This document shows positions 1-38,344 of a stretch of 41,761 bases of DNA, piece by piece. A program made the position numbers and the translations under genes. Position 1 is the first letter of the stretch; each line of letters opens with the position of its first letter. The notes beneath the pieces are model-generated. The model made no database searches, had not been told where the DNA came from, and saw nothing but the letters and a program-made list of their open reading frames with translations. The DNA comes from a virus, in IMG/VR virus record IMGVR_UViG_3300019886_000012, positions 1-41,761 of that record; one strand, 5' to 3'.

Positions 1-796
1 AGGCGTTTTGTTTAATAAAAATGCTTGCATCTTGACTGGGAAGTACGGCAGTTCCATTTTCAACAATGGAAATTCCGGCGGCTGATGAATCAGTTATGCT
101 CGCGCCACCGGCACTGATGGCGGAAAATGGACCTACGCCGCCACCTCCCCCCCCGGTAGCATCCGCAACAATTCCAGTTGTATCGTTGATACTTAATGTG
201 GAAAGATTGGTACCGAAAAGAATACTACTTGCGCCCAATTCATTAAATCCAATACTGTTTTCTGAGGTGTCTGTAAAGCTAATGCCTCCTTTACTTGTAC
301 CTGTTATTGGACCTGTCCCGGAGTTCCCAAAATTAAAAGCGGTAGCATCAAGCAGTATTCCTAACGGACCATCGTTAGCTAGTTGGACTAGGCCGAAGAG
401 GGAATAGGAATACGTCCCCGCCCCTGACTCAGAGTTGTCCTTAAAAAGCAGTGGAGTACTTGAACTGGTCGGATTGATAACTTGTAACGCCGCCCCCAGC
501 GTCACATCCCCTGTGGAAGGTTCAACTATACTATTCAGAACTCCACCAAATACTCCATTATTATTATATTGAAGATTAAAAGAATCTCCGACAGGAATTC
601 CTCCACCACTTCCACCAGCATTTATCCAACTCCCCGGCCCATAACCTTCACTATCTGGCTCAGTAGTAACAAATACAAATAAATTACTGGAATCTTGTGA
701 GAATACTAATTTACCATTTAAATCAACCGTAGTTGAAGGGTCATCAACCCATACAAGGGCTTTACCAAACTTAAATATTGTATTATCAATATTCAT
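1..796 (-). CDS. tail fibre-like protein, N-terminal part (runs off left edge)
   Basis: The reading frame starts at an ATG ending at base 796, with AGGAG just upstream, and continues without a stop to the left edge, so 265 codons are visible and the C-terminus is missing. After an N-terminal segment (about residues 1-60) the protein becomes Gly-, Ser- and Thr-rich. It contains a module reading GVFGG followed by PSTGD, which is common in phage fibre proteins. A related module (GVFGA then PSTGD) occurs in the protein at 32365-33861, so the two are probably modular relatives. Unlike that protein, this one has no signal peptide. A virion fibre or appendage is the likely role, by inference from composition and position downstream of the portal gene. 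Confidence 0.65.
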   Translation of the reverse strand, partial: MNIDNTIFKFGKALVWVDDPSTTVDLNGKLVFSQDSSNLFVFVTTEPDSEGYGPGSWINAGGSGGGIPVGDSFNLQYNNNGVFGGVLNSIVEPSTGDVTLGAALQVINPTSSSTPLLFKDNSESGAGTYSYSLFGLVQLANDGPLGILLDATAFNFGNSGTGPITGTSKGGISFTDTSENSIGFNELGASSILFGTNLSTLSINDTTGIVADATGGGGGGVGPFSAISAGGASITDSSAAGISIVENGTAVLPSQDASIFIKQNA

Positions 797-1164: not shown

Positions 1165-1539
1165 TTAACTAATAGTAATCTTCAAATTTGTAGGAGGATT
1201 AGGTAACGTAATTACAATCGGAATCATTCCACTTGCTTCATTGGATGGAGTAGATTGTGCATTACTTATCATATTAATAGTTCTAACAAAGTAATAATAT
1301 GTAGTACCAGCAACAAGATTCGCCGTATCGGTATATGTGCAAGTCGCACCGGAACAATTCACGCCTGTAGGACTCGCAGTTTGTGATATATTAGATTCTT
1401 GGCCTGCCGCTGTGCCACGATAAATATTATATCCTACACCTGACGTAGTGGATGCCGTCCATGTTAGAATTATATTATGTGACTGGGCAAACGCGCTTGC
1501 AGTAAAGAATAAAAGTACTAATAAAAGTTTCTTAATCAT
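1165..1539 (-). CDS. secreted fibronectin type III domain protein
   Basis: The 124-residue product begins with a textbook Sec signal peptide: MIKK, a hydrophobic core LLLVLLFFTASAF, then AQS as a likely signal peptidase I site near residue 19. The rest is one fibronectin type III domain, seen from LTWTAS at the first strand, YNIYRG in the middle and AGTTYYYFVR near the end. An AGGAG site precedes the ATG. A paralogue lies at 32024-32368. FN3 domains are common on phage particles, but a cleavable signal peptide suggests export from the infected cell. FN3 domains with this wording are frequent in Acidobacteriota. The function is unknown; surface display, adhesion or superinfection interference are possibilities. 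Confidence 0.75.
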   Translation of the reverse strand: MIKKLLLVLLFFTASAFAQSHNIILTWTASTTSGVGYNIYRGTAAGQESNISQTASPTGVNCSGATCTYTDTANLVAGTTYYYFVRTINMISNAQSTPSNEASGMIPIVITLPNPPTNLKITIS

Positions 1540-18643: not shown

Positions 18644-18787
18644 ATGCAATGTGAATTCTGTCATAGAATATCTAATAGCTTATGTGATTTATATAAAGTT
18701 CCTTTATGTATGAAACACGCAAATTACTCAGAAAATGGAAATCTTTGTATAGATTGTGAATCAGATATGTGTATGGGTGAAGAATAA
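18644..18787 (+). CDS. Cys-rich zinc-binding protein, 47 aa
   Basis: The 47-residue protein starts after TAAGGAG. It has CEFC near the start, Cys14, then LCMKH, and CIDC plus a further Cys near the end. At least one treble-clef or ribbon-type zinc site is likely. Its TAA overlaps the next ATG by one base. Partner and function unknown. Confidence 0.5.
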   Translation: MQCEFCHRISNSLCDLYKVPLCMKHANYSENGNLCIDCESDMCMGEE

Positions 18788-19071: not shown

Positions 19072-19078
19072 GAATATT

Positions 19079-19276
19079 ATGACTATATTAAAATATAAAG
19101 TCAAAGTTATTCTAGTTAAAGTTGGAATAGCTAAAAAGAAAAAGAAGTTTGATATATTATTAAAGTCATCAAAGATTTTATTGCCTGACTTTAAACAAGC
19201 TGATGAAGCATATAATGATATTGTTAAAACACTGAGAGCAAATTATGGATTAGGAGACTTAAATGCCAAAGATTAG
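19079..19276 (+). CDS. small basic protein, 65 aa
   Basis: The ATG at 19079 is preferred over an in-frame start inside the previous gene. The N-terminal half is very Lys-rich (KVGIAKKKKKFDILLKSSK) and the C-terminal half is helical with mixed charge. The gene overlaps the Sak4-like gene by 14 bases. It may bind DNA or assist that ATPase; no family is recognised. Confidence 0.5.
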   Translation: MTILKYKVKVILVKVGIAKKKKKFDILLKSSKILLPDFKQADEAYNDIVKTLRANYGLGDLNAKD

Positions 19277-20090
19277 CGAACTCACCCCGGAGAGGGGCCG
19301 TATGTTCATGTTTAAAGGTGAATTTAAGACGGGTAAAACTGTTGCATACGGCAGTTTTCCTGAACCAATTTACATATTTGATTGTGACGGCAGAATGGCA
19401 CCGCTCGCATCTTGTCCGTGGCTCAAAGGCAAGGATATTGAATATGACACGTACACCGATTGGAATAAAATCACAAAGAAACTTGAAGAATTTGAGCATA
19501 GATGTGACTTTGCAACTGTAGTTATGGGAAGTTTGACAAGTCTCGCACGTTGTACGATTAACTCTTTATTTAGAAATCGTGGTACTGGAAGTTCGGGAAG
19601 AAAAGGAGATAAGGCAGAGCCATTGAGTATCGGCGGAATTCCGATCATGGGTATTGCAGAATACAACGGTGAGAGTTCAGGATTGAATATTATTATGACA
19701 CAGATGCGCGTCATACATAATATACATAAATGTAATATGATATTGGAATGTCACGTAGTAACAGGTGAAATACCACAATTAGGCGGTGGCGCGACCACAT
19801 TTCGTCGAATAGTTACTGGCGGCAATAAAGTCGCGGCGGAAATTCCAGGTTATTTTGATGAAGTGTATCACTTCTATTGTGACTCTGATATTAATTCAGA
19901 GAAACGTGAATTCGTGGCGCGTATCAGAAGTAATTCAATCGACTTTGCCGGTAGTGCAATTCCGGAACTTCCCGATAAGATTAACCATACTAACGAGGAT
20001 TTCTACAAGATTTGGAGTGGTTATTTGCCAAAAGATTCGGCAAAGACTACTTTAAATACTGAAAATGAATTCAATTCATTTCAGGGTTGA
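19263..20090 (+). CDS. Sak4-like RecA-fold ATPase
   Basis: The 275-residue protein has a P-loop GEFKTGKT (19-26), followed by YIFDCDGR (37-44), typical of the AAA_24/Sak4 group of phage recombinases related to RecA. A VVMGSLTSL segment (86-94) sits where Walker B is expected, with Gly89 replacing the usual Asp. A polar segment (EIPQLGGGATTFRR) precedes the C-terminal beta region. Sak4 proteins promote single-strand annealing or strand exchange and often occur next to an SSB, as here. The start follows TAGGAG. Confidence 0.78.
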   Translation: MPKISELTPERGRMFMFKGEFKTGKTVAYGSFPEPIYIFDCDGRMAPLASCPWLKGKDIEYDTYTDWNKITKKLEEFEHRCDFATVVMGSLTSLARCTINSLFRNRGTGSSGRKGDKAEPLSIGGIPIMGIAEYNGESSGLNIIMTQMRVIHNIHKCNMILECHVVTGEIPQLGGGATTFRRIVTGGNKVAAEIPGYFDEVYHFYCDSDINSEKREFVARIRSNSIDFAGSAIPELPDKINHTNEDFYKIWSGYLPKDSAKTTLNTENEFNSFQG

Positions 20091-20137
20091 AAAATAATCA
20101 ATCAACCAAACAACCAAACAAACAAAGGAGAACTAAC

Positions 20138-20521
20138 TTGGCCTTACTCAAATATGGTACAGAAGATGTACTCCGTGGTAAGATGGTCGAAGTTGGCTGG
20201 CATGAAGCAGTTGTTAAAGAAATTGTTGAAAGTGCTGCGGCAACTGATGGTAGTACGAACTGGAAACTCACAGTTGTAATTCGTGAAGGTGGAAAGTTTG
20301 ATGGTGTACCACTAGACCGCTACTTTAATGAAAAGGCTCCAGGTTTTGCTTTGAATTATTTCAAGGCACACGGGGCTAATATCGATGAAAAGAATGGCGG
20401 AGACTTAGATTTTCAAAAGACGATTGGACGACCTATTGGTATTTTTGTAGAAATTGAAGAATACCAAAAGCGTCCTAAGAATGTAATTAAGGACTTTAGG
20501 CCGCCTAAGAATAAGGCGTAA
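20138..20521 (+). CDS. SSB-like DUF669-type protein, 127 aa (TTG start)
   Basis: The likely start is TTG after AAAGGAGAACTAA. The frame opens 51 bases earlier at another TTG, but that stretch is simple CAAA repeat and non-protein-like. The protein shows an OB-like pattern with VEVGWHEAVVKEIVESAA, NWKLTVVIREGGKFDG, a PLDRYFNEK strand and a KDFRPPKNK tail. This resembles the DUF669 family of phage single-strand-binding partners of Sak4 recombinases. It follows the Sak4-like gene directly. Confidence 0.65.
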   Translation: MALLKYGTEDVLRGKMVEVGWHEAVVKEIVESAAATDGSTNWKLTVVIREGGKFDGVPLDRYFNEKAPGFALNYFKAHGANIDEKNGGDLDFQKTIGRPIGIFVEIEEYQKRPKNVIKDFRPPKNKA

Positions 20522-20532
20522 GTAATTTCTGC

Positions 20533-20564
20533 GTTCCGCATCACAACTTATCGTGGTGCGGACC
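20533..20564 (+). other. stable hairpin next to a ribosome site
   Basis: Arms 20533-20544 and 20553-20564 pair at 11 of 12 positions (one G-U, one mismatch) around an 8-base loop. The ribosome site GGAGGA starts immediately after the 3' arm. No T-run follows, so control of translation or message processing is more likely than termination. Confidence 0.5.
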
Positions 20565-20573
20565 GGAGGAATT

Positions 20574-20828
20574 ATGGCAAAATATGTTGACTTTGAATTA
20601 TTTTCAGAATCAAAAAGTGGAAAAACTAAAATTTGGAATGTCGTAACTCAGATAGGAAGTAAGATATTAGGTACTATCAGTTGGTATGGAGCTTGGAGAC
20701 GATATTGTTTCTATCCTTTATTTGGAGATATTACAATATTTGAAGAAACTTGTTTAAGAGATATTGCAGATTTTATTGAACAACAAACAAGGGAACATAT
20801 TTATATGATTGTCATTAACAATGAGTGA
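20574..20828 (+). CDS. conserved phage hypothetical protein, 84 aa
   Basis: The ATG follows GGAGGA at ideal spacing. The 84 residues have a KTKIWNVV strand, LGTISWYGAWRRYCFYPLFG, and a helix with CLRDIADFIEQQ. This order is seen in a short family widespread in phages and mobile elements, of unknown function. The aromatic-rich core suggests a compact alpha/beta fold. It overlaps the next gene by eight bases. Confidence 0.6.
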   Translation: MAKYVDFELFSESKSGKTKIWNVVTQIGSKILGTISWYGAWRRYCFYPLFGDITIFEETCLRDIADFIEQQTREHIYMIVINNE

Positions 20829-20982
20829 TACATTAGAGAATGCACAAGTCACAACCAAAGTATGTATGTATTGTGATGTGGAAGAAAGTGAAGATAATCA
20901 ATTCACATACTGTCATCTATGTCAAGATTATTATTGTGATGATTGTAGTTTTATTCACATTGCTGCATATGAAAGTAAATAA
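20821..20982 (+). CDS. Cys-rich zinc-binding protein, 53 aa
   Basis: A 53-codon frame overlaps the previous gene. The protein has CMYC, CHLC and CDDC motifs plus a final His, which fits a B-box or RING-like pair of zinc sites. The N-terminus is acidic. It lies directly before the polymerase gene, so it may be an accessory factor; this is inference from position. Confidence 0.5.
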   Translation: MSDTLENAQVTTKVCMYCDVEESEDNQFTYCHLCQDYYCDDCSFIHIAAYESK

Positions 20983-20985
20983 ATC

Positions 20986-22470
20986 ATGCCTAATTGGGTC
21001 AATGGTGTTGGGTCAGGTTCAGCAAAGTTAATAGTTATTGGTGAATGTCCGAATAAGTATGAAGATGAATCAGGTATACCATTTGCTGGATCATCAGGTG
21101 ATTTAGTTGATGAAATGTTGAAGGAAGCTGGTACTGAACGTGATAAATGCTATATCACAAATGTATATAAAGTAAGGCCACCAGATAATGATATAGAGCG
21201 CATCGTGGAAACAGGATATACGCATGAATACTTCGTGAACATTCTTAATAAAGAGATTTCTACTATTAGTCCTAATTGCATTCTTGCTCTTGGTAATTTG
21301 GCTCTTAAAACTCTTACACCATTTTCTGGGATTAACCATTATAGAGGTAGTATCCTACGCAGTATACACGGCGGAAAACTCGTAAGCACAGTACATCCAG
21401 CAAACCTATTGGAACATCGCGGCGAAGGAATTTATACTTGGAAAAGTAAAGCATTTATTCAATTAGATTTTAATCGTGCAGTAGAAGAAAGTCGTTATCC
21501 AGAGATAGAATTGCCATCACGCGCACTTTGGATTTGTAAAGATTCACTTAATTTAGCAAATTATTTAGAAAGGAATAAGGACAATGAGAAATTGGCCGTT
21601 GACGTTGAGACTTATCATACAATACCTATTTGTATTGGTCTTGCTTTTAGTTCTAGTGAAGCTATATCTATTCCCCTTCTTAACGTTTTGTCTAGTGAAA
21701 ATCCTGAAGGTATTAACAGCACTGAATTAGCAACATTATGGAGTATGATTTCGGAGGTACTTGCAAATGAAAAAGTTAAAAAAGTGGGACAGAATTTTAA
21801 ATTTGATGAGCGTATATTACGGGGAGTTGGATTTAAAATTAACGGATTCTATTCAGACATTATGCTCAAATTTCATAGTTGCTTTGCTGAATTCCCAAAA
21901 AAGCTTGAATTTCAAACCTCCATACTTACAAGAGAACCTTATTATAAGAATGAAGGGTCGGAGTATAACCCAAAAAAAGATAATTTTAGTAGACTTTTAC
22001 TTTACAACGCAAGAGACGCCGTTGTCACGTATGAAGTCGATGAAAAGCTTGAAAAGGAAATCGAAGAATACGGAGTAAAATCTGTATACTACGATTTTAC
22101 CATGAAGTTACATAGATTTTATTACGATATGGAAGATAATGGAATTCTACTTAATAAAGTTAGACATAAGGAAGTTGTAAATAAATATGAAACCAAACAA
22201 CGAACAGAACAAATTACCCTTGAATTTCTCGTGGGACATCCAGTTAATGTTCAGTCTCCCAAACAATGTGCAGAACTCCTTTATGATGAGCTTAAACTTC
22301 CCAAAAGGGTTAAGCGAAGAAAGGGTGGAAAATCTTCGATCAGCACTGATGAAAATGTTCTATGTCGCTTCTCGCAAATGTTGTTAAAGATGAAAAGAGA
22401 AGGACTATTATTGGACATATATTACAAATCAGAGGATATTATAAAACCCTTGGAACATATCTTGGAGTAA
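20986..22470 (+). CDS. SPO1-type DNA polymerase, N-terminal part: UDG-like domain, 3'-5' exonuclease, start of polymerase domain
   Basis: The 494 codons begin with a uracil-DNA glycosylase-like domain: VIGECPNKYEDESGIPFAGS at 17-36, then STVHPANLLEHRGE at 134-147. A proofreading domain follows with Exo I VDVET (Asp206, Glu208), Exo II GQNFKFDE (Asp274) and Exo III YNARDAVVTYE (Tyr340, Asp344). The start of the family A polymerase domain runs to STDENVL (to residue 459). After that this frame stops resembling a polymerase, and homology continues in the -1 frame. A UDG-like N-terminal domain fused to PolA is known from phage SPO1. Real product, frameshift or sequence error is discussed in the findings. 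Confidence 0.85.
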   Translation: MPNWVNGVGSGSAKLIVIGECPNKYEDESGIPFAGSSGDLVDEMLKEAGTERDKCYITNVYKVRPPDNDIERIVETGYTHEYFVNILNKEISTISPNCILALGNLALKTLTPFSGINHYRGSILRSIHGGKLVSTVHPANLLEHRGEGIYTWKSKAFIQLDFNRAVEESRYPEIELPSRALWICKDSLNLANYLERNKDNEKLAVDVETYHTIPICIGLAFSSSEAISIPLLNVLSSENPEGINSTELATLWSMISEVLANEKVKKVGQNFKFDERILRGVGFKINGFYSDIMLKFHSCFAEFPKKLEFQTSILTREPYYKNEGSEYNPKKDNFSRLLLYNARDAVVTYEVDEKLEKEIEEYGVKSVYYDFTMKLHRFYYDMEDNGILLNKVRHKEVVNKYETKQRTEQITLEFLVGHPVNVQSPKQCAELLYDELKLPKRVKRRKGGKSSISTDENVLCRFSQMLLKMKREGLLLDIYYKSEDIIKPLEHILE

Positions 22471-23444
22471 CTAAATATGATGAAAAGAAAAAAAGAAGAA
22501 ATGTTGGTTATGAAGATTCTGATGGAAGAATTAGAACGTCTTATCTAATTTGTGGAACCGAAACCGGGCGCACCTCTACTAATAAACTTGAACCTCCAGT
22601 CCGCGACGGTATATTTGGACTTGCTTTTCAAACTATTACAAAGCATTCCGAAGAAGGGTGTGATATTAGAAGCTGTTTTATCCCAAGTTTAGGATATACT
22701 TTAATCGAAGCGGACCAATCCCAAGCAGAATCTCGCATCGCGTTACATCTAGCAAATGAATTTGAACAACTTGCAATGATGGACGTATTTGATTTGCACG
22801 TCATACGCGCCGCGTGGATAACAGGAAAATCTTATGAGGAAGAATATTCAATATTTAAATCTGGCCGTGATGAGAGTAGACAGATTGGAAAGCACTCTGG
22901 CCACGCCAATGATAATGGTGTGGGTAAAAAGCGGTTGGTGGAATTGGTTTATCATCATTCTGGCGGAAAGATTATTATCTCTGAGTGGCGTGCAGGTGAA
23001 ATTCTTAAAATTATCAACAAAAACATCCCAGGAATACAAGGAATATTTCATCAAGGAATAATTGATCAGTTATCAAAAGATAGAACTCTAGTTGACCCTT
23101 GGGGGAGGAAAAGAACTTTCTTTAATAAATGGGGTGAGGAACTTTGGAAAGAGGCTTTTGCACATATTAAACAAACGATTGTGGCGTATAAGACTCAAAG
23201 TTCTGGATTAAAGATTCGTGAAGGAATCCCTTTAATTAGAATGCTTTATGAAGGCCATGATGCACTCTTGATGGAATGTCCAAATGCAATTGTTAGTGAA
23301 AGCATTCCAATAATTAAGAGAATATTTGAAGAACCTATTGACTTCAAAGAGTGTAGTCTAAGTCGTGGAGTATTAAAAATACCTTGTGATATTAAGTTGA
23401 GTACAACTAATTGGAATGAAATGAAAAACTTTAAAGGAGATTAG
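22362..23444 (+). CDS. SPO1-type DNA polymerase, C-terminal polymerase domain (-1 frame)
   Basis: The frame continues the polymerase domain from MSLLANVVKD. Motifs of family A are visible: GTETGRTST (65-73), motif A EADQSQAESR with Asp118, motif B Arg173-Lys177-His181, and motif C EGHDALL with Asp300. In motif B the residue aligned with the conserved Tyr of the O-helix is Asn185. The ATG at 22362 has no ribosome site, and the same frame has a stop at 22350-22352. This part is thus either made by -1 frameshifting from the upstream frame or separated from it by a one-base sequencing or true mutation. Without the upstream half it would lack part of the thumb. Confidence 0.82.
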   Translation: MSLLANVVKDEKRRTIIGHILQIRGYYKTLGTYLGVTKYDEKKKRRNVGYEDSDGRIRTSYLICGTETGRTSTNKLEPPVRDGIFGLAFQTITKHSEEGCDIRSCFIPSLGYTLIEADQSQAESRIALHLANEFEQLAMMDVFDLHVIRAAWITGKSYEEEYSIFKSGRDESRQIGKHSGHANDNGVGKKRLVELVYHHSGGKIIISEWRAGEILKIINKNIPGIQGIFHQGIIDQLSKDRTLVDPWGRKRTFFNKWGEELWKEAFAHIKQTIVAYKTQSSGLKIREGIPLIRMLYEGHDALLMECPNAIVSESIPIIKRIFEEPIDFKECSLSRGVLKIPCDIKLSTTNWNEMKNFKGD

Positions 23445-23445
23445 T

Positions 23446-23796
23446 ATGAATCTAAATAATTATGCAAAAGAAGTACATAAAGCAAATTTAAAGTGGTGGA
23501 TAGATATTAATACACAAGAACCTATTAAACGTAATTTTGGTGAACTTATTGCATTATGTCACTCAGAATTATCAGAGGCTCTTGAAGGACATAGAAAAGA
23601 TTTAATGGATGATAAACTTCCACACCGTAAAATGGTTGAAGTTGAGCTAGCAGACTGTTTGATTCGCATCTTTGATATTGCAGAAGGATTAGGTTATGAC
23701 CTTGAAGGTGCGTATCTAGAAAAGATGTATTTTAATGCTCATCGTGAGGACCATAAATTAGAACATCGTCGCGCTGAAGGAGGTAAAAAATACTAA
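23446..23796 (+). CDS. MazG-like nucleotide pyrophosphohydrolase
   Basis: The 116-residue protein has the all-alpha MazG pattern: GELIALCHSELSEALEGHRK (about 32-51) supplies the ExxE metal-binding helix and VEVELADCLIRIFDIAEGLG (64-83) the ExxD helix. Such enzymes hydrolyse NTPs or dNTPs to monophosphates. In phages they may tune nucleotide pools or alarmones. An AAAGGAG site precedes the ATG, one base after the polymerase stop. Confidence 0.85.
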   Translation: MNLNNYAKEVHKANLKWWIDINTQEPIKRNFGELIALCHSELSEALEGHRKDLMDDKLPHRKMVEVELADCLIRIFDIAEGLGYDLEGAYLEKMYFNAHREDHKLEHRRAEGGKKY

Positions 23797-23797
23797 T

Positions 23798-24166
23798 ATG
23801 ACAATCATTCAGAGACAAGATATAATTTCGGGAATATTTAGTCAAGTAAAAGATATGGCTATATCAAAAGGTAAGGATTATTCAAGTAAAGAAGATTCAC
23901 TTGCCAATTTCAAACGTAATGCAGAAAGACTTGGCCTGACAAAGTATCAGGTCTGGTTAGTATACTTTAATAAGCATATTGATGCAATTAACAACTCAAT
24001 TCGATATAATCCAGACGCGCCGGAAGTATCAAGTGAACCATTAGAAGAGCGCATCATAGATGCGATTACTTATTTGACTTTATTTAAATGTTTACTTGAG
24101 GAGGATAAAACGTCTACAGGAGTTTTGATTCTTAATATTGAAGGTAATGAAGGGAGTAAAGATTGA
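23798..24166 (+). CDS. DUF1599-like protein (nucleotide-modification associated)
   Basis: The 122-residue protein contains SKGKDYSSKEDSLANFKRNA (about 23-42) and LEERIIDAITYLTLFKCLL (about 82-100), the two helical signatures of DUF1599. That family is linked to nucleotide modification and is structurally like MazG proteins. Together with the preceding gene it suggests altered nucleotide metabolism. An AGGAGG site lies 14 bases upstream. Confidence 0.7.
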   Translation: MTIIQRQDIISGIFSQVKDMAISKGKDYSSKEDSLANFKRNAERLGLTKYQVWLVYFNKHIDAINNSIRYNPDAPEVSSEPLEERIIDAITYLTLFKCLLEEDKTSTGVLILNIEGNEGSKD

Positions 24167-24339
24167 AACATATAATTCTAGTTCAAATTGAAGCAGAATG
24201 TGAAAGTCATGCACATTTAATTGAATTAACCAGAGAAATGTTTGTTCTTAATAATCTTCCATCAGGAAAAAAACCTAAACTCTATTACATAATTAAACCA
24301 ATTCAAAATAGTTGTAAACTTCCCAAAATCGGAGACTAG
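24163..24339 (+). CDS. small hypothetical protein, 58 aa (TTG start)
   Basis: A 58-codon frame opens with TTG, nine bases after GGGAG, overlapping the previous stop. It ends with a TAG directly abutting the next ATG. The product begins with a beta strand (KHIILVQIEAECE) followed by a helix, resembling the layout of the 48-residue protein at 14867. Function unknown. Confidence 0.5.
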   Translation: MKHIILVQIEAECESHAHLIELTREMFVLNNLPSGKKPKLYYIIKPIQNSCKLPKIGD

Positions 24340-25527
24340 ATGAATTGGATTCAACAGATTATTGATGAAACAGAAGAATTTGAATCCCCTTCCAGATACA
24401 TTTATTGGGCAGCATTATCAGCAATTTCAGCAGTTTGTAGAAAGAATCTTTATTTAGAAAGATATACACATCAGTTATATCCTAATATCTTTGTATTACT
24501 TATTGGTGAATCCGGACTAAAGAAAGGTTATCCAATATCACTATCCAGACGATTAGTTGAGTATGTACATTGTACTAGAGTAATCGCAGGTAGATATAGC
24601 ATTCCAGCAGCGATTAGAGAGTTAGGAAAAGTCTATACATTAAGTAAGGATGAATTTCTTAAGGAGGCGTATGGATTCTTTTGCAACTCAGAATTAGATT
24701 CTGCATTAGTTAAAGATGATGATTCATTTTCAGTCTTAACAGACTTATATGATTGTCATTGGAATCCAAAGTGGAATAACTGGTTAAAATCGGGTGATTC
24801 AGAATTAACAGATCCTTATTTAGTTATGTTAGGTGGTTCAAATGAGGATAACTTAAAAGGTGCAATTCCAGGTAAGGCAGTTCATGGCGGATTTATTGCT
24901 CGCACCTTTGTTATATTGGAAGAAGAAGCGCGCACAGTAAATCCTTTAACCAAACCACCTAAAATAACCGTAAATGTTGCACAACTTTCAAAACACTTAA
25001 TGCAAATATCAAATCTAAAAGGTGAATTTACCTATGGAGAAGGTGCGGCGCAATACTTTGAAGATTGGTATCGTGAATTTAGGACTAATCGGCCTAGAGA
25101 CCCTACTGGAACATTGAGTAGAATCGATGATTCAGTTCTTAAAATTGCGATGTTGATTTCATTAGGTAAGAGATTAGATTTAATTCTCACAATTGAAGAT
25201 ATTGCAGAGTCAATAGAAAGAGTATTTGAATGTCTACCTGGGATGCGTAAAGTATTTATGGGAACAGGTAAGGCAGAATTGGCGGAGAAAACTGCAATCA
25301 TTATTAAGGCAATAATGAAGCAACCTGAATTGAAAATAAAACGCAGTAAACTAATCGGTGATGGATGGAAATGGGGAGATTATGACGCGCACGATGTTGA
25401 TAAGATTGTAGATACTTTAACACAGGCTAATGCGATACTTGTGCATAGAAATGGTACCGATACTACTTATGAATTAAAGAAGGATATTGCTGAGGCTTAT
25501 CGAAAATTCAAATCGGAGGTTCAATGA
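24340..25527 (+). CDS. DUF3987-like primase/replicative helicase
   Basis: The 395-residue protein starts with a helix and SPSRYIYWAALSAISAVC, then a P-loop-like GESGLKKG (56-63) and a Walker B-like YGFFCNSELDSALV. This order is typical of DUF3987-type phage replication proteins, which act as helicases or primase-helicases. The residue after the P-loop Lys is Gly, not Ser or Thr, a variant I believe occurs in this group. A winged-helix-like C-terminus follows (IKRSKLIGDGWKWGDYDAHD). It is the only replicative helicase candidate besides the SNF2 protein. Confidence 0.72.
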   Translation: MNWIQQIIDETEEFESPSRYIYWAALSAISAVCRKNLYLERYTHQLYPNIFVLLIGESGLKKGYPISLSRRLVEYVHCTRVIAGRYSIPAAIRELGKVYTLSKDEFLKEAYGFFCNSELDSALVKDDDSFSVLTDLYDCHWNPKWNNWLKSGDSELTDPYLVMLGGSNEDNLKGAIPGKAVHGGFIARTFVILEEEARTVNPLTKPPKITVNVAQLSKHLMQISNLKGEFTYGEGAAQYFEDWYREFRTNRPRDPTGTLSRIDDSVLKIAMLISLGKRLDLILTIEDIAESIERVFECLPGMRKVFMGTGKAELAEKTAIIIKAIMKQPELKIKRSKLIGDGWKWGDYDAHDVDKIVDTLTQANAILVHRNGTDTTYELKKDIAEAYRKFKSEVQ

Positions 25528-25745
25528 AAACTTGTCTTGAGATAGCAACAAATATTAATCAATGGCCTAACTGTGTAATAACAGATTGTCCTAATAAATC
25601 ATGTTTACATTTACATTCTAATAAATGCTGGCCACATACTGTTAAAGTATCATTAAACTGGTATAGAGGACTCCATACAAAAGAACGTGAAAGACGTTCT
25701 AGAATTATTGAAAAAGAATACATTGATAGATTAATCACTTCTTAG
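25524..25745 (+). CDS. small Cys-rich protein, last gene of early operon, 73 aa
   Basis: The 73-residue protein starts after CGGAGG, overlapping the primase stop. It has Cys4, Cys17, Cys22, Cys27 and Cys35 with nearby His, then a basic helix (RGLHTKERERRSRIIEKEY). A zinc-binding N-terminus is likely. Its 3' end overlaps the convergent late gene by 11 bases, so neither operon has an intergenic terminator here. Confidence 0.55.
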   Translation: MKTCLEIATNINQWPNCVITDCPNKSCLHLHSNKCWPHTVKVSLNWYRGLHTKERERRSRIIEKEYIDRLITS

Positions 25746-30018: not shown

Positions 30019-30411
30019 TTATAACACCAAGAAAAAGGCGTTACCAGCTTTTTCAAACTTAAATCTATGTTCAAGAACTTTATCAAATTCCGGTGAATCA
30101 AATGTAAAGGCATGAATTCCATCAAGTCCTGCAAGTTGAACTTCCATTATTCCACGTTTAAATATTTTATCTAGTGCCTCTGCGCGAATACTTCTTTCGC
30201 ACCCAAGATCTAAAATTATAATTGCTTCGGCAATAATCTTTAAAAAAGCCGCTCCGATAACTTTTCCATCTTCAAGTACAATACACCGCGCAATATTAAG
30301 TGGACTTGCATAATTTTCTTTAGTAAAGTTATGATACTTTTCCGGCGTGAGTGATTGGATGCGCTCCAAGTCAGTATCATATTTTGGGTCATACTTTACT
30401 AGTTCTATCAT
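30019..30411 (-). CDS. GNAT-like acetyltransferase fold protein, 130 aa
   Basis: The 130-residue protein shows a GNAT-like order: an N-terminal strand-helix, then ARCIVLEDGKVIGAAFLKII (about 41-60), a strand ILDLGCE, a helix RAEALDKIFKRGI and a late strand HAFTFDSPEF. The Q/RxxGxG acetyl-CoA loop is not clear, so activity is uncertain. GNAT-like proteins are often found near the tail genes of podoviruses. The start overlaps the upstream stop, with no obvious ribosome site. Confidence 0.55.
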   Translation of the reverse strand: MIELVKYDPKYDTDLERIQSLTPEKYHNFTKENYASPLNIARCIVLEDGKVIGAAFLKIIAEAIIILDLGCERSIRAEALDKIFKRGIMEVQLAGLDGIHAFTFDSPEFDKVLEHRFKFEKAGNAFFLVL

Positions 30412-30412
30412 A

Positions 30413-31186
30413 TTAATTTACACTATCACAATGATAATATACCGTACCGCTAATTGCTGCAACAGCTACAGTTAAAATAGTTGTACTTAAAGAAGATATT
30501 GCTGGATTAATAGATGTGGTCGATGGTGATACTACACATATAGGTGCGACCTGAGCGGTAGCAAATGTAACTGTACATGACGTTGCACCAACCGATAAAG
30601 ATATTGCACCATCAATATCATTTATAGTTCCACTTGCTGCACATCCTGTACCGCCAACTGCCGGTGCAGTTGTATGTGTAAATACATGACCAGCTAATCT
30701 TGTAATACCTTGAATATCAAATAACGCAGGAGATACTGGACTACATGCTCCAGTATTTACGCACCAAGATTGAGCTGCCCTAAGTACACCAACATTAGGA
30801 CTAATAATACTTATATTTCCTAGCGACTGTAAAACAGTTACAGTTCCAGAAATTGTAGTACCATTAGCTGATATAGTTAAACCATTAAAATTAAGTAATC
30901 CTGTACCTTTTGAAAGTAATTTTAATGTAATATTAGTATCACTACCAGTTCCAGCAATCTGTACAGTTGCAGGATTAGCAGTCGCTGCATTAGTTACAGT
31001 AATACTATCAACTGCACTGGTAGTTCCAGATGAAAGAATAAATGGATTACCATTAGTATCTTTAATGGTATTAGTTTGTAACGTGTCTTTTACTTGCGTA
31101 GTTAAATTAACTTGAGTGACTGCATTAATTACAGTCATACAAGCTAACCAAGATACTATTAATATAATACTTTTCTTAATCATCAT
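30413..31186 (-). CDS. secreted fibre-like protein, 257 aa
   Basis: The N-terminus (MMIKKSIILIVSWLACMTVI, then NAVTQ) is a likely Sec signal peptide. After it, residues 22-37 (AVTQVNLTTQVKDTLQ) match the same region of the next protein upstream. The rest is Thr/Ala/Ser/Val-rich beta sequence with TNAATANPATVQIAG and a C-terminal SVGATSCTVTFATAQ region. This resembles the distal parts of phage fibres that end in conserved beta strands. It is the last of the secreted cassette. Confidence 0.6.
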   Translation of the reverse strand: MMIKKSIILIVSWLACMTVINAVTQVNLTTQVKDTLQTNTIKDTNGNPFILSSGTTSAVDSITVTNAATANPATVQIAGTGSDTNITLKLLSKGTGLLNFNGLTISANGTTISGTVTVLQSLGNISIISPNVGVLRAAQSWCVNTGACSPVSPALFDIQGITRLAGHVFTHTTAPAVGGTGCAASGTINDIDGAISLSVGATSCTVTFATAQVAPICVVSPSTTSINPAISSLSTTILTVAVAAISGTVYYHCDSVN

Positions 31187-31617
31187 TAATACCTATAGTT
31201 GCAAATTAAAGTCGTCCCAGTCGGAGGCGCAGTTCCGTATGTAATGGTAGCAGTTGATAAAGTATAATCAGCACTACCTGCAATTTGATTAAGTCCATTT
31301 TCAAAACAACTAGTACTTAATGCAGGACTTGGAGTATGTGCTAACGTAAATGTAACATTAGAACCATTAATAGTTCCAGATGGAACTTCTGCATCAGCAA
31401 ATTGATATCCTGCTGTAGTAGTTGTTACAATTACACCAGAACTAGGAAATGTAGCAGTAGAACTTATTCCAGTTCCGCCATTAGTTTTAGGGAGTAAACC
31501 TTTAACTTGAAAGGTTAGGTCAATTTGACTAACTGCGCCGATAACTAATGCAGCAGTTGACATTAGAAAGAATACTGCTACTGCACCACGATTAATCTTT
31601 CGCATAGTTTTCCTCAT
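31186..31617 (-). CDS. secreted fibre-like protein, 143 aa
   Basis: The N-terminal hydrophobic segment (AVAVFFLMSTAALVIGA) after basic residues is a probable signal peptide or membrane anchor. A second ATG at residue 5 (base 31605) has a better ribosome site (GAGGAAAACT) and may be the true start. After AVSQIDLTFQVKGLL comes the motif NGGTG, which is common in tail fibres. A short beta domain with SCFENGLNQIAGSADYTLST follows. Start and stop overlap both neighbours by one base. Confidence 0.6.
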   Translation of the reverse strand: MRKTMRKINRGAVAVFFLMSTAALVIGAVSQIDLTFQVKGLLPKTNGGTGISSTATFPSSGVIVTTTTAGYQFADAEVPSGTINGSNVTFTLAHTPSPALSTSCFENGLNQIAGSADYTLSTATITYGTAPPTGTTLICNYRY

Positions 31618-32027
31618 TAAGCAATTCTATACCAAGAGCACATATTAAATGACGAAGTTGGAATTGCATTAGTTAATGTAATAAGAGTCCCGACTAACGT
31701 AAAATCATAAATTGTAGCATCAACTGTTAACATTAATAATTGACCATTTACTTGTAAGATAATACTTTCAGGTGGATTAGGCGCATCCGGTAATACAAAG
31801 TTTTGATGATCGCCTGAATCAACTGGAATTATTCTATCTCTAAAACCAGGTAATACAGGTACAACTGGTTTAGGCGCACCTGATAATTGAATAATTGTAT
31901 TAGTATTCTTAATTACATTAGTATTTATTCCTTCTAAAGATTTCTTGACTTCTTCAAGTGCCCAATACGCTGGGTCATCTCTAGGCACTTTATTTATATT
32001 TGTTGCCAACCTAGAGGTATTATTCAT
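31617..32027 (-). CDS. fibre cassette protein without signal peptide, 136 aa
   Basis: The 136-residue protein has an N-terminal helix (DDPAYWALEEVKKSLEGINT), a Pro/Val linker (APKPVVPVLPGF) and a C-terminal beta domain (ESIILQVNGQLLMLTVDATI). Unlike its neighbours in the cassette, it has no signal peptide. It may be the virion-side adaptor of the cassette, by position only. It overlaps both neighbours. Confidence 0.5.
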   Translation of the reverse strand: MNNTSRLATNINKVPRDDPAYWALEEVKKSLEGINTNVIKNTNTIIQLSGAPKPVVPVLPGFRDRIIPVDSGDHQNFVLPDAPNPPESIILQVNGQLLMLTVDATIYDFTLVGTLITLTNAIPTSSFNMCSWYRIA

Positions 32028-32368
32028 ATCGCCGTAGCTGATGTTTCGTTACTTTGAATATTACAATTTGTTAATGCTATTTTACCGCATACAATGGCGA
32101 CGTAAAAATAATGTGTTCCACTTATAGCAGTTGTATCGTTATAAGTTGTTCCAATGATTCCAGATGAAATAATTACTTCTGTACCTGATGTAAGGCTACG
32201 TCCAACTGCATAAGTTACATTTGGCGTAGTTGATGCACTCCAACTTACAGTAATGAAATGTGGACCACTCATTGCTGTGGCAGCGAGCGCACCGCTATTA
32301 GTTATTCCTAAACCTTGCGCCAATACTAGCCTATTAACTAATAGTAATATAAGAAGTAGTTTTTTCAT
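32024..32368 (-). CDS. secreted fibronectin type III domain protein (paralogue)
   Basis: The 114-residue protein starts with a signal peptide (MKKLLLILLLVNRLVLAQ). One FN3 domain follows, seen from FITVSWSASTTPNVTYAVGR, then YNDTTAISGTHYFYVAIV and a Cys pair (CGKIALTNC). It is the paralogue of the protein at 1165-1539 in the other half of the late operon. Overlaps of four bases link it to its neighbours. Confidence 0.72.
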   Translation of the reverse strand: MKKLLLILLLVNRLVLAQGLGITNSGALAATAMSGPHFITVSWSASTTPNVTYAVGRSLTSGTEVIISSGIIGTTYNDTTAISGTHYFYVAIVCGKIALTNCNIQSNETSATAI

Positions 32369-33861
32369 TTTGCACTCAATACAACTGTAATTGCAGAATA
32401 TGTGATATTACCTGCCGTTGGATTACAAAGTACATAATCTGCGTTATTTGCACTTAACGCATACGCAGCAACATTCATTCCACCAGTTGAACCCCAGCCA
32501 GTCAATGCAGCAGGACTAGATGTATATCCAACATTAATAATAGTATGTACTGGAGTAATAATAATTCCTGTCATAGTTATTGGAGTTGCAGGTGAACTAC
32601 AAGTATTAGCATTTTGAGTACCGGATGCTATAGTAGTTTCAACATTTGCAATCTTTGCAATAGTATTAACTACAAATGCTTTATTAGCAATAGTAGTATC
32701 AGAAGTTCCTGCCGTACCAGTATTTGCAGTAGTCCCTGTAGGCAATAATGGCGTTCCAGATAAATTTGCAGCTGTACCAGAGGTATTTTGATTAAGTGTA
32801 GGAAAATTCAACATATTAGCTGCGCTGATAGTTGGCGCGTTTTGAAATGACCACGCGCCAGTTCCACCAGATGCAGGACCAGCTAATACTGTATTTTGTG
32901 GTACGGTAGCAGGAGTACAAACAATAGATGCAGTTGTACTAGGATTATTTACAATGCAACTAAACAATGTACCTAGTGTTGCACTCATAGCAACAGAAGT
33001 TACACCGCCACCACTTCCAGTAGGCCACACATTAATACAACTTGTCGCAATGCAAAATTGTGGTGCTGTGAATCCTGTATCTGAAACTACTGGCTTACCA
33101 ACAAAACTAAATCCACCAGAACCATTTTCAGTCCAAGAATATCCACCACTAGAGTTATCTACATAAGTAAATCCTCTAATAGTATTCAAGAATAGGCTTA
33201 TACCGCCAGTAAAGTCACCAGTTGAAGGATTGACCGAAAGATTAGGAACTGCACCAAAAACTCCAGCAAGATTCATTTGAATACTATTGGTAGGCGGCGC
33301 GGGATTGGTAGTTCCGCCTCCACTACCAGTAAATACTTGCCATGAATTAGTGACACCATTTGAACCGTAATAATAAGTTCCAACAGGACTTAATCCTAAA
33401 ATATTCTGCGACGCGCCTTGTGCCGTAGTCGCGCCAGTACCACCATTAGGAATATTTAATACTGGAAAACTAAAGAATGAACCATTACATATTACTGAAC
33501 TGCGTGTAACACTTCCACTTGCAGGCACGCACCAATCTTCCGTAAATCCACCAGTTCCACCAGGATTTGCATTTGAATAACTTACAATATAATATGTCGG
33601 ATTAGGATTAGAGCCTGCATTTGGAATAATGGGTATTGATAAAGTATTTCCAATTATAGAAAATTGTGCTCTCCATCCACCTAATACTGTATATCCATCA
33701 GCAGATATAAAAGTTTGTGGTGATGAAATTGTTGCAATCCAATTTCCAGTCAAACCTAATGGATTAATAAAATCATTATCAGTAATGGTAGTCTTATTCT
33801 GAGCAAATAGACTTGAGGTTATCAAAAATAATAGCAGGAATAACTTTTTAATTAAATTCAT
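32365..33861 (-). CDS. secreted tail fibre-like protein, 498 aa
   Basis: The start MNLIKKLFLLLFLITSSLFA followed by QN is a clear Sec signal peptide. The mature part is Gly/Thr/Asn/Ser-rich and beta-like. It contains the fibre motif NGGTGATTAQGA and the GVFGA/PSTGD module shared with the truncated fibre at the left edge. An ASGGTGAWSF segment is also typical of fibre repeats. Signal peptides are not expected on virion fibres assembled in the cytoplasm. It may therefore be displayed on, or released from, the host. An AAGGGT site precedes the ATG. Confidence 0.65.
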   Translation of the reverse strand: MNLIKKLFLLLFLITSSLFAQNKTTITDNDFINPLGLTGNWIATISSPQTFISADGYTVLGGWRAQFSIIGNTLSIPIIPNAGSNPNPTYYIVSYSNANPGGTGGFTEDWCVPASGSVTRSSVICNGSFFSFPVLNIPNGGTGATTAQGASQNILGLSPVGTYYYGSNGVTNSWQVFTGSGGGTTNPAPPTNSIQMNLAGVFGAVPNLSVNPSTGDFTGGISLFLNTIRGFTYVDNSSGGYSWTENGSGGFSFVGKPVVSDTGFTAPQFCIATSCINVWPTGSGGGVTSVAMSATLGTLFSCIVNNPSTTASIVCTPATVPQNTVLAGPASGGTGAWSFQNAPTISAANMLNFPTLNQNTSGTAANLSGTPLLPTGTTANTGTAGTSDTTIANKAFVVNTIAKIANVETTIASGTQNANTCSSPATPITMTGIIITPVHTIINVGYTSSPAALTGWGSTGGMNVAAYALSANNADYVLCNPTAGNITYSAITVVLSAK

Positions 33862-36227
33862 TGTACCCTTTCATCTGCAAAACTATCACCAAAAGTGATA
33901 AGTCTACTCATCTCAAAATAAGCATCAGCATCTCGACTATTTGCAAAGCATAAATATCCACGTTCATCAACAAAGTTTAATTTGATTTGTAGTTCTTGTC
34001 CAGGTTTTGTGATTAGTGGTTCAGGTAATGCTTTATAGAATGTAGTATCATCTTCACTAAATATAGTAGTTCTAATACTTCCTGAACCTGTAGCCTTTAA
34101 CTTAACACCAGTGAAAAGATTAACAACACCTTCAACTGGCTCATGACCGCCAAAATGCGCAAATTGTAATATTGGATTAGTTATAATTCCATCAATATAA
34201 TCATCAAGATTATTAGGATTAAATTTAATAATTGCTCCTGATGGAAGTAACGTACAAACTTCAACTTCAAATCCTGTAGGTGAATCTAATAGATGCGAGT
34301 TTGTGTGATAACTCCATAAATCCCATTTTAAAGATTCTTGACCAATTCCTTCATTATAATCTCCAACTAATGTAAATCCATGCATTGTAAGATTATAAGT
34401 GTTTGTGAATACTATAACAGTTTCTAATCCTGAAAGTACAATAACTGACATAGGATTTAATGAAGAACTAACGCCCCAATCAGGAAGTAGACTTTCTGTT
34501 ATAGTATAAATTCCCGGTGCGAGTTGAAATGTCTGCTGTTCTCCGTCAAGTAATGAAAATGGCAAACTAAAGTTAGTAACAAAATCAAATGCTTGAAATG
34601 ATGCCGGTGGATTAGTAATCTTTTTAATCGTTAAACTACCTATTGGCGGAGCAGGTGGTATTGATAAAATATCTGACGGAAGTAAAAACTCTGCCCATAA
34701 TCCTGCAACTGAGGCATCAAATCCATTCTCACAAGAAGTATTAATATATCCAGTTCCTAATCCAATATCATTCAACCAACTAGGACAAGTTAATGGTACA
34801 TTAGTTGGCGGAACTGATGCAGTATTACCTGCTGAATATCTTGAATTAAGACTTGCCGGATCTGCCAAAAAAGCATTAATATCAGTTGAAAATTGTAACG
34901 TATGAGATGAAATATTTCCATCAAATACTGGAGGGATTACTCCAGTAATAGTTACTGAGTTCGTATAAGCATTCGGAGCTTCGATTACACCACCAACAAG
35001 ATTTAAAGTAATGGTCATTGAACCCATTACTTTCCATACCGGAGTTCCTCCAGCGTTAAATGATGCATCAGGAATTAACTCACCGCGCATCATATTCATG
35101 CTATAAGGTTCAATAGTTGATGGATCAGTTGGTCCAGTAACTCCTGCAAGAAAACATTCAAAATATATAATTCCTGAATTACCAAGATATGCAGAATTAA
35201 AAGTAATTGATTTAATATCTCCAACACCTACTGCTTGATTAACTGCGTAAGGAATAACATCACTAATACAAGTAGGTAACACCATAGCTTCAAAGCCATG
35301 AGTTACTGATGAATTTGGCCTATTCCATAATGGACCAAATCCGGTTTGTTTTAACTTACTAGGATAAACTTGTCCTGTATTCTCCCATTGTAATCCTGTT
35401 ACTAATTCAGTTGTAACTAATCCTTTTGCAGCCCAATTAGCAGGTTCGTTATTTCCAGTAATTCCATTAATTAATGCGATTTGACCAAATCCGTTGGAAT
35501 CTAATCTCTGAGTTCCACGTGCCACGGCGGTATATTTCTGCCATCTCGGAAAATTAGGTGGTGCTGGTGGTAATCCAACTCCTTCACCGCCAAAATCACT
35601 TCCATTAGCCGCCGTGACTGGTGCGAAACATTTTACATTAGTTATTCCAAATGGAGAAACTAACATAAACATTGCAATAGCAGACGCAGTTGATGTACCG
35701 TCAGAAACTGTTATTTTATAATAAGGTGCGCCGACTGAAACTACATTTGCATATCCGCCACCGGGGACATTAAATATTAAATTCTGATTATAATCAAATG
35801 CTCCAGTGTAAAATTGTCCAACTCCAGGAATAACTGTCAATGAACCATTCGGAGCGACTGTACCAAGTCCATCAATAGTTGCTGAAATTACATCATTAGA
35901 TGAAGTCCAAGTAAGTTTAAATGATGCGCCTAGCTTAACTGATGCTAAAGAATATGCAAGTGCCGTATATCCATTTCCTTCAATGGGAATTACGCGGCGA
36001 AATGTAACTGTACCAACAACTGTAAAATCACCTACATTAGTACCCCAAGTAGGTGTTGGATTATTACCAGAATTACCAGCTACGTATATTGCTTGATAAT
36101 TACCATTACTGTCCACAATTAAATCAGGATAATGGATATCATTCAATCCCCAATAATCAGTATTTGGCTGATAGCGAGGAAGTCCATCATCTGAAATATT
36201 TGATATAACTAATGTACAAGTTGGCAT
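33858..36227 (-). CDS. large tail protein with prealbumin/SpaA-like domain, 789 aa
   Basis: The 789-residue protein is beta-rich throughout. The N-terminus (to about residue 200) looks like Ig-like modules (KLGASFKLTWTSSNDVISAT, YYKITVSDGTSTASA). Around residues 530-600 GSLTIKKITNPPASF, QTFQLAPGIYTITE and NPMSVIVLSG match a prealbumin-like/SpaA fold often used in adhesins. The C-terminus ends without a helical bundle. It is a candidate receptor-binding or tail appendage protein. It has no signal peptide, unlike the next genes. Confidence 0.6.
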   Translation of the reverse strand: MPTCTLVISNISDDGLPRYQPNTDYWGLNDIHYPDLIVDSNGNYQAIYVAGNSGNNPTPTWGTNVGDFTVVGTVTFRRVIPIEGNGYTALAYSLASVKLGASFKLTWTSSNDVISATIDGLGTVAPNGSLTVIPGVGQFYTGAFDYNQNLIFNVPGGGYANVVSVGAPYYKITVSDGTSTASAIAMFMLVSPFGITNVKCFAPVTAANGSDFGGEGVGLPPAPPNFPRWQKYTAVARGTQRLDSNGFGQIALINGITGNNEPANWAAKGLVTTELVTGLQWENTGQVYPSKLKQTGFGPLWNRPNSSVTHGFEAMVLPTCISDVIPYAVNQAVGVGDIKSITFNSAYLGNSGIIYFECFLAGVTGPTDPSTIEPYSMNMMRGELIPDASFNAGGTPVWKVMGSMTITLNLVGGVIEAPNAYTNSVTITGVIPPVFDGNISSHTLQFSTDINAFLADPASLNSRYSAGNTASVPPTNVPLTCPSWLNDIGLGTGYINTSCENGFDASVAGLWAEFLLPSDILSIPPAPPIGSLTIKKITNPPASFQAFDFVTNFSLPFSLLDGEQQTFQLAPGIYTITESLLPDWGVSSSLNPMSVIVLSGLETVIVFTNTYNLTMHGFTLVGDYNEGIGQESLKWDLWSYHTNSHLLDSPTGFEVEVCTLLPSGAIIKFNPNNLDDYIDGIITNPILQFAHFGGHEPVEGVVNLFTGVKLKATGSGSIRTTIFSEDDTTFYKALPEPLITKPGQELQIKLNFVDERGYLCFANSRDADAYFEMSRLITFGDSFADERVQ

Positions 36228-38344
36228 TAGAATCCAGTTACATGAAATCGTTTATTCTTAACATCAACTACGATTGCAATCGAGTTATAATTATTAATGC
36301 TATCCCACAAATCTTGAATCTTCCAAGTCAATGCTGGTAGTTGAATAGTGCCATTAAATAAATAAATTCCTGATGTGTCTGCAATCATTACACTATCAGA
36401 TTGTGAACTATTTTCAATAGAAGGACTTGCTGTAGAAATCCCCCTAAAACTCGGGGTTCCTACACTTTGGTCAATAGGATTAGCCGTATCCCAATTAATT
36501 GGGTCAAGTCCATTATCTAATGCAGAATATATTCCTTTAGACTTTGTAATGTATAAAACATCTCGAATAATACAAGTATTTGATACAAAATATCCATCAT
36601 CTTTATTAACAATGTATGTTTCAAGAGTTTTATCAAATGTCTCTGGCGTACCTGCATTTGAGAACCTAATGATTGAATTATCAGGTTGCTGCAATCCCCA
36701 AATTGCTAGTCGTGCCGCGTAGACATTAATACCTTGGCCAGAAGGAATGTTAGCTCGCACATTAAAAAGGTAATCGGCACTATCAACGAGGTCAGTAGCA
36801 AAAAAATCAAGAATAGTAGTGGTTGTGGTATTATCATTTATTACTCCCCCAGAAGTTCCAGGAACAAACCAATATGGCTCAGTTTGTCCTGCTTGTGTGA
36901 TAATAATATTTCTAGCAACTGTACCTGCTGGCCCTATTGGCAGCCCAGTGATATTTATCTGGTGCGCACCTGCCGCGTTAAAACTAATTGCAACGTGTGA
37001 ATCAACTGATGGATTAGTTAAGAATCCTGTATCAGTTTCATATACCACATTAATTTGATAAAGTCCTGCTGGAACATCACCAGTTTGTGAAGTCTGATAA
37101 AATACTTGAATTGTTACATAATCAATTCCAGCAGTTGCACCATTTCCAGGCGCACCGGTACATAACGTAGATATATTTATTCCAAATGAAGATGAATTAA
37201 TAATTGCTGGATTTAATCCAATTCCTAATCCCCAAGTATCTGTATCGCTTCCATAGGCTACATTTTGATTACCCGCCCAAGGATTAGCACCGAAATAATC
37301 ATTTGAACCGCCTACACCTGCTAATGTAATAGATTTATCATAAACTGCACTTGTACCTGAAATTTGCTGTCTATGAACCAATACACGTACCCCAACAACA
37401 GTAGCGGTAGCAGGAATTGAAAATCCAAAATTTGTCAATTCAAGAATATTTGAAGGGTTAGACGCGAAAGTATTAGGCATTGTAACAGTTGCATATAATC
37501 CATCATCTTTTGTCACATTACTAAGATTAGTCCACGCCGCGTCTGCACCAGATTGTGCCTGACTTTGTGAGGGTGCAGCAGCAGTATTTGCCGTGACAAT
37601 ATTCTGTGCTGAACCGTCAACCGCCGCCATTTGTGTTAATGAAGTCGGCGCGGCACCACCAGCTTGTTTAATTGTAGAATTGTTATTATTAGTTCCAGTT
37701 CCTACACCTAATTGTTGAAATTGTCCATCAACCCAAATTCCATCAGTCTCAACAACTGCTGAAGGATTAGCAATCGTAAATGTCCCTGCCCCTAAAGCCG
37801 TAATTGGCGCAATGATGTTATTACCTGCATTAGTCATCAATTCAATAGTCATTAATTGATTGACTTGTAATGCAGGACCGTAAACTAAGTTATAAGAATA
37901 TGTCGCGTTGGCTCCAGAAACTGCAACAGAACTGATTGCAACTGTTGACTGAGGATAATACAACATTATCAAATTGCCAACTGGACCAACTCCGTTACAA
38001 GGACAAATGAATAAACTTGAATAAAAGTTTACACAAAAGAAATCAGTCGCACCATCAACTGTGAAAAGTGGCGTATTGCTATTATTAAAATAAAAATTGC
38101 CTATCAAATCAATCGAAATGATAGGATTGGGTGTGCTATTAGTCACCCATTCAGCAAAATTATTTCGTGGAAAGTCTAAGTTATAACGGAGTGAACTTCC
38201 GGGGCGGATACCAAATTTACCCTTTTTAAAAGCATTATTACGTGAATCCCAAAAATGATCCGCAGGAACTTCTTCTTGAGTACCATTTTTATATAATCCC
38301 ATAAATGACTTAATTGGGATTTTTTGGCATTCAGTAAAGTTCAT
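36227..38344 (-). CDS. tail nozzle/tubular protein-like, 705 aa
   Basis: The first 60 residues (NGTQEEVPADHFWDSRNNAF, then KFGIRPGSSLRYN) look like the start of podovirus nozzle proteins. The C-terminal 200 residues carry repeated beta-propeller-like segments (NVYAARLAIWGLQQPDNSII, VSNTCIIRDVLYITKSKGIY). Between them lies an inserted Thr/Asn/Ala-rich module (about 190-420). The gene lies downstream of the adaptor gene, as in known podoviruses. The assignment is by context and pattern. Confidence 0.62.
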   Translation of the reverse strand: MNFTECQKIPIKSFMGLYKNGTQEEVPADHFWDSRNNAFKKGKFGIRPGSSLRYNLDFPRNNFAEWVTNSTPNPIISIDLIGNFYFNNSNTPLFTVDGATDFFCVNFYSSLFICPCNGVGPVGNLIMLYYPQSTVAISSVAVSGANATYSYNLVYGPALQVNQLMTIELMTNAGNNIIAPITALGAGTFTIANPSAVVETDGIWVDGQFQQLGVGTGTNNNNSTIKQAGGAAPTSLTQMAAVDGSAQNIVTANTAAAPSQSQAQSGADAAWTNLSNVTKDDGLYATVTMPNTFASNPSNILELTNFGFSIPATATVVGVRVLVHRQQISGTSAVYDKSITLAGVGGSNDYFGANPWAGNQNVAYGSDTDTWGLGIGLNPAIINSSSFGINISTLCTGAPGNGATAGIDYVTIQVFYQTSQTGDVPAGLYQINVVYETDTGFLTNPSVDSHVAISFNAAGAHQINITGLPIGPAGTVARNIIITQAGQTEPYWFVPGTSGGVINDNTTTTTILDFFATDLVDSADYLFNVRANIPSGQGINVYAARLAIWGLQQPDNSIIRFSNAGTPETFDKTLETYIVNKDDGYFVSNTCIIRDVLYITKSKGIYSALDNGLDPINWDTANPIDQSVGTPSFRGISTASPSIENSSQSDSVMIADTSGIYLFNGTIQLPALTWKIQDLWDSINNYNSIAIVVDVKNKRFHVTGF

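Follow-up and report, generated by a model that had tools for sequence, protein, structure and literature searches.

In the current view, both the folding and the attachment of tailed-phage fibres take place in the cytoplasm, and to our knowledge none of the known fibres is exported before assembly. Phage-encoded proteins that are exported by the Sec pathway include lipoproteins and periplasmic proteins that serve in superinfection exclusion or lysis. Exosortase processes PEP-CTERM proteins for the cell surface; these proteins, like FN3 proteins, are common in bacteria. Our literature search, whose coverage fell short of most subscription papers, retrieved no account of tailed-phage fibres exported by Sec.

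The locus described here lies in the virus record IMGVR_UViG_3300019886_000012, analysed over its whole length of 41 761 bases (hereafter the window). It contains a cassette of late genes that resembles podovirus or CBA120-type fibres and tailspikes (T7 gp17 N-terminal domain, TSP4) in the fold of a 143-aa protein, in its NGGTG and G-rich linkers and in its late tail-module position, and that differs from them by the presence of signal peptides and paired cysteines. As in the exclusion and lysis proteins just mentioned, the products are phage-encoded with predicted Sec export; unlike them, they show no lipobox in any of the five signal-peptide proteins, carry fibre-like domains, occur several per genome and are encoded with tail genes. 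Late genes of two relatives combine a signal peptide with a PEP-CTERM tail, as in PEP-CTERM/exosortase surface proteins, whereas no such sorting tail (PEP motif, transmembrane segment, basic tail) was found in the five proteins of the window. Finally, the protein encoded at 1165-1539 weakly matches FN3/Ig-like domains of phage structural proteins (lambda J type, PF24489, phrog_31), but it is stand-alone, predicted to be exported and equipped with a Cys pair. Our analysis suggests that the cassette probably encodes adhesins of the fibre type that are produced late in infection, exported by Sec and disulfide-bonded.

Organization of the locus

The record corresponds to a podovirus-type phage whose late genes lie on the minus strand, the plus strand carrying those for replication. 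Its ends do not join cleanly (a truncated capsid gene at one end, a cut fibre-like ORF at the other), so that a few kb seem to be absent. No near relative was present among 50,697 isolate phage records (best terminase identity about 30%), and terminase and capsid searches of bacterial genomes pointed to no host, yielding only two apparently mis-binned phage-like MAG contigs. These contigs of the phage family (L132 and L133), binned in a Pacearchaeota MAG and a Bacteroidetes MAG, are probably mis-binned phage DNA. The features discussed below are the following.

1..796, minus strand: fibre-like ORF cut by the contig end, without signal peptide; its motifs NNNGVFGG and EPSTGD resemble those of the 498-aa gene
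1165..1539, minus strand: 124-aa protein, signal peptide and putative FN3 domain, 2 Cys; between a portal-like gene (1549-3828) and 805-1152
30019..30411, minus strand: 130-aa protein resembling small acetyltransferases, whose gene forms the conserved downstream limit of the variable slot
30413..31186, minus strand: 257-aa protein, signal peptide, fibre-like body and C-terminal domain, 6 Cys in total
31186..31617, minus strand: 143-aa protein, signal peptide, NGGTG linker and C-terminal beta domain with one Cys pair
31617..32027, minus strand: 136-aa protein inside the cassette, without signal peptide (score -2.9)
32024..32368, minus strand: 114-aa protein, signal peptide and one FN3-like domain, 2 Cys
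32365..33861, minus strand: 498-aa fibre-like protein; signal peptide MNLIKKLFLLLFLITSSLFA, followed by Q, at about 33802-33861
33858..36227, minus strand: 789-aa upstream neighbour in the same operon, without signal peptide, fibre/adhesin-like, with a prealbumin-like stretch seen by eye
36227..38344, minus strand: 705-aa conserved tail protein in nozzle position, which marks the tail module

Between 33861 and 30413 each gene overlaps the next by 1-4 bases, and the cassette is therefore part of a single operon that also includes the upstream genes for the 789-aa protein and the tail protein. The tail protein has relatives with 33-40% identity in G004, G009, G011, G012 and G013, and the acetyltransferase-like gene was assigned by eye to the equivalent place in G004, G009 and G012. 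According to gene maps, the slot between these two genes is nearly empty or otherwise filled in relatives. A family search with the 789-aa protein gave no match. The 136-aa protein matches the profile of the family's conserved non-exported fibre/adaptor proteins when it is part of the seed and reaches only E=0.32 when left out, which is suggestive only of its possible membership.

The fibre motifs reported in the earlier note were found again: NGGTG in the 143- and 498-aa proteins, and GVFGA and NPSTGD in the latter, which also contains GFTAPQFC and has 8 Cys in its mature part. A fibre with a signal peptide in the unrelated locus L002 contains a motif relative. For the C-terminus of the 498-aa protein, homology to proteins of L060, L062 and L063 was considered and dropped after leave-one-out failure, and the AlphaFold model of this C-terminus was too poor for use (pLDDT 48).

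Two further observations concern other parts of the window. A uracil-glycosylase-like and DNA polymerase A fusion is apparently split into two overlapping ORFs (20986-22470 and 22362-23444); the equivalent in the relative G004 is a single 820-aa ORF, and the split corresponds to a frameshift or an assembly error. Near the terminase and portal genes, a 122-aa protein (3964-4332; phrog_24118, 3e-33) has an HG...SEGC pattern reminiscent of L,D-transpeptidase-type enzymes.

Signal peptides and paired cysteines

Signal peptides had been noticed earlier on four of five consecutive late genes and on the gene at 1165, and this reading was borne out by a home-made score of n-, h- and c-regions, in which textbook E. 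coli signal peptides reach 5.3-7.9 and the pass mark is 4.5. The proteins starting at 1165, 30413, 31186, 32024 and 32365 scored 7.8, 6.1, 6.6, 7.0 and 6.3, respectively, and shuffles of their first 40 residues matched the observed values in at most 1% of cases. By the same in-house scoring, all five fit the SPase I pattern, with a positive n-region, a hydrophobic h-region and small residues at -3/-1. Only three other ORFs of the window exceed 4.5 (4511, 15350 and 16008), all short and membrane-type. A strict signal rule selected only 47 of the 1337 late-strand proteins of the family with a mature part of at least 80 aa (gene starts across loci being predicted by a simple rule), so that four of five in a row cannot be put down to chance.

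In Gram-negative bacteria, even Cys numbers are preferred in exported proteins (PMC7678975). The idea that cysteines are paired in the present family arose from the first relatives and was then tested on new loci. Over 85 loci, the number of Cys in the mature part is even in 40 of 42 Cys-containing proteins with a signal peptide vs 327 of 763 without (p=2e-12); the difference persists after clustering at 40% identity (36/38 vs 117/264, p 7e-10) and in the loci that had not been used to form the idea (26/27 vs 287/663). The effect grows with the signal score, reaching 17/17 at scores of at least 7. Non-signal fibre-like proteins matched for composition have even numbers in only 18 of 51 cases, with a Cys content of 0.56% vs 1.71% in signal-peptide proteins. 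Lipoproteins show odd numbers in seven cases out of ten, as expected with one lipid-bearing Cys. The mature parts of the five window proteins contain 8, 2, 2, 6 and 2 Cys. These even numbers suggest that the mature parts are adapted to an oxidising compartment, in which disulfides would form.

Related proteins with and without signal peptide lead in the same direction. The domain of the 143-aa protein has a Cys pair in the exported window copy and none in its non-exported L127 homologues; likewise, comparisons of L119 with L112 and of L014 with L071/L060 showed the Cys pair only together with a signal peptide. The FN3 assignments of the earlier note are probable: a family FN3 profile from which the proteins at 1165 and 32024 had been left out recognises both (leave-one-out 4e-9 and 1e-3, respectively); against PF24489 and PF00041, the 1165 protein stays below the curated cut-offs (18.5 bits vs 25 for PF00041). 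FN3 proteins with a signal peptide have 2 or 4 Cys in nearly all cases (one has none), and those without have 0 (L143, L148 and L152). An apparent exception (L071 17157-17480) was rejected, since its signal peptide is out of frame with the rest across an A-run, which reflects either a frameshift or a homopolymer error. Exported fibres of L098 and L111 share with the 257-aa protein its C-terminal domain, including four conserved Cys (leave-one-out 1e-5). Six exported fibres have an N-terminal motif in common (N532), which was linked to the unrelated L002 by eye only. A 743-aa protein of L113 (13626-15857) combines a signal peptide with 20 cysteines and a beta-helix tailspike-like motif, GVYPEWWGA, recognised by eye.

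It could be argued that the N-termini are not functional signal peptides but hydrophobic tails of cytoplasmic virion proteins or products of misplaced starts; a home-made score taken alone does produce false positives, such as a portal-like protein in L134. We consider this very improbable, as neither the Cys parity nor the homologue pairs depend on the N-terminus and both fit export, and as the signals recur in many unrelated proteins.

Two relatives encode PEP-CTERM proteins among their late genes. One is present in L068 (identical to L045; 9308-9988), with 16.5 bits against TIGR02595 (cut-off 16), and the other in L082 (2764-3414), with 22.6 bits against the same model and 30.7 bits against PF07589 (cut-off 20.7); the latter has no match in isolate phages. 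Such late genes would represent phage use of host exosortase sorting. Because signal peptides, Cys parity, homologue pairs and PEP-CTERM relatives agree, true export of the cassette proteins, as adhesin- or fibre-type products, appears very likely from the sequences.

Distribution among relatives

Relatives were gathered by terminase and capsid searches. The capsid relatives form a large uncultured podovirus family of 434 members, of which 80 were examined over stretches of at most 21 kb; as these loci are partial, the lack of a gene carries less weight than its presence. Of 85 loci, 31 encode late proteins of the fibre-like or FN3 kind with signal peptides, at various places in the operon, including the terminase-portal and portal-capsid intervals and the vicinity of the tail protein. 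G012 harbours four in a row, with one signal-less gene among them. The search for the cassette in other phages suggested by the earlier note thus turned up signal-peptide fibre-like or FN3 genes among uncultured relatives; DNA and protein searches of isolate phages gave no counterpart of the cassette (one weak Salmonella phage match and gp359 of Bacillus phage G), and five isolate podoviruses with related terminases contain no exported fibres of this kind. In searches of viral contigs, the tail protein recovered no locus and the 498-aa protein a single one, which was also the only one aligned through the TAPQFC motif.

On the capsid tree, large exported fibres switch between present and absent at least six times, as a mobile accessory trait would. 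It extends beyond one family, since an unrelated siphovirus-like contig (L134 and L135) encodes three giant fibres of 1829, 1313 and 1556 aa, with 34, 26 and 34 cysteines, respectively, all with signal peptides. Their genes (L134 10924 to L135 9085; G001 10924-25585) occupy about 14 kb of 32.6 kb.

The high turnover and varying positions implied by these six or more changes would also fit host genes acquired by the phage as cargo, in place of true phage fibre proteins, and the frequency of FN3 and PEP-CTERM proteins in bacteria is compatible with such an origin. We nevertheless judge it unlikely in view of the late-operon placement with overlaps of 1-4 bases, the phage-typical fibre motifs and 143-aa fold, and the kinship with non-exported phage proteins.

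Fold of the 143-aa protein and possible roles

The model of the 143-aa domain (pLDDT 74) gave weak Foldseek matches in the PDB (E 0.045 and above, TM-score 0.5-0.6), nearly all of the top ones being phage fibre or tail parts, such as CBA120 TSP4, the PhiM1 nozzle-fibre and the T7 gp17 N-terminus (7rej, 7rfo, 8vbx, 7boz). A viral library returned many fibre, tailspike and pectate-lyase proteins (best E 1.6e-4). The predicted domain consistently resembles fibre/tailspike virion-anchor domains; within the window, such fold or sequence kinship was found for the 143-aa protein only.

From the signals, cysteine pairing, kinship and recurrence read in the sequences, we infer the following course. Signal peptides would direct the cassette proteins to the host periplasm via Sec and be cleaved; during their periplasmic stay, oxidation would pair the Cys of the small beta domains that follow the fibre linkers; the proteins would then be set free at lysis and, outside the cytoplasm, probably act as binding proteins.

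What they bind for is a matter of more tentative choice. The likeliest single role, which we hold at somewhat less than even chances, is that of virion-type fibres or spikes that complete their folding in the periplasm and become available to the progeny at lysis, perhaps docking onto the particles. It is favoured by the predicted anchor fold of the 143-aa protein, by the tail-operon position and by L113 and L057, in which no spikes or fibres are obvious apart from large exported proteins. None of the 15 loci with a long conventional fibre/adaptor contains a large exported fibre, against 14 of the 24 with a short one (p 1.4e-4); with one row per near-identical locus group, the counts are 0 of 12 vs 13 of 22 (p 6e-4). 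On the capsid tree, with one or two informative pairs, this exclusion is not significant. We know of no tailed phage in which secreted fibres attach to the particles once the cell has lysed, and no such case was found in the literature covered, which lacked most subscription papers. The earlier note started from the premise that export is unnecessary for virion fibres, but this leaves room for a virion role, given the anchor-like fold of the 143-aa protein and the absence of large exported fibres beside long conventional ones. The stronger proposal of a two-compartment assembly, in which the family would finish its receptor-binding fibres outside the cytoplasm by Sec export and periplasmic disulfide formation and join them to the virion only at lysis, is rather doubtful.

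Periplasm-matured virion-type fibres are put slightly ahead of receptor masking or surface display, in which exported binding domains would cover receptors on the infected cell and on debris, blocking superinfection or progeny re-adsorption. This alternative is a serious possibility. It shares the well-supported export (signal scores, Cys parity), and some of the cassette products consist of one FN3-type domain and lack fibre parts; exported and non-exported related domains also stand side by side (e.g. L062 1266 and 1754). An adaptor without signal peptide persists alongside in all 41 loci where it was recognised, so that export is not the sole fibre route. The surface display envisaged in the earlier note has direct backing only in L068 and L082, whose PEP-CTERM sorting signals show that proteins of this family can be sent to the cell surface; the window proteins carry no anchor and have no known route past the outer membrane. 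Masking also has no known receptor, and the 143-aa protein retains an anchor-type fibre fold.

The PEP-CTERM relatives raise a further possibility, namely that the proteins, like PEP-CTERM proteins, act on the host's biofilm or its extracellular polysaccharide. The L082 protein is weakly similar to the flocculation-associated PepA (31 bits, cut-off 80), and the exported beta-helix tailspike-like protein of L113, recognised by its motif, would suit such remodelling. This role is improbable for the window cassette, since PEP-CTERM proteins occur in only two of 85 loci and are not homologous to its products, and since no enzyme family was matched.

If this widespread family does export fibre-type proteins with disulfide bonds, and at times PEP-CTERM proteins, these phages would build part of their virion in the periplasm or shape the envelope of the infected cell. 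The combination of a signal peptide with even Cys numbers in late fibre-like genes provides a simple sequence test applicable across all viral genomes. Pelagibacter phage HTVC115P encodes a 199-aa late protein with a signal peptide and four cysteines in its tail region (L137 33755-34354), which offers a culturable place for testing late exported proteins.
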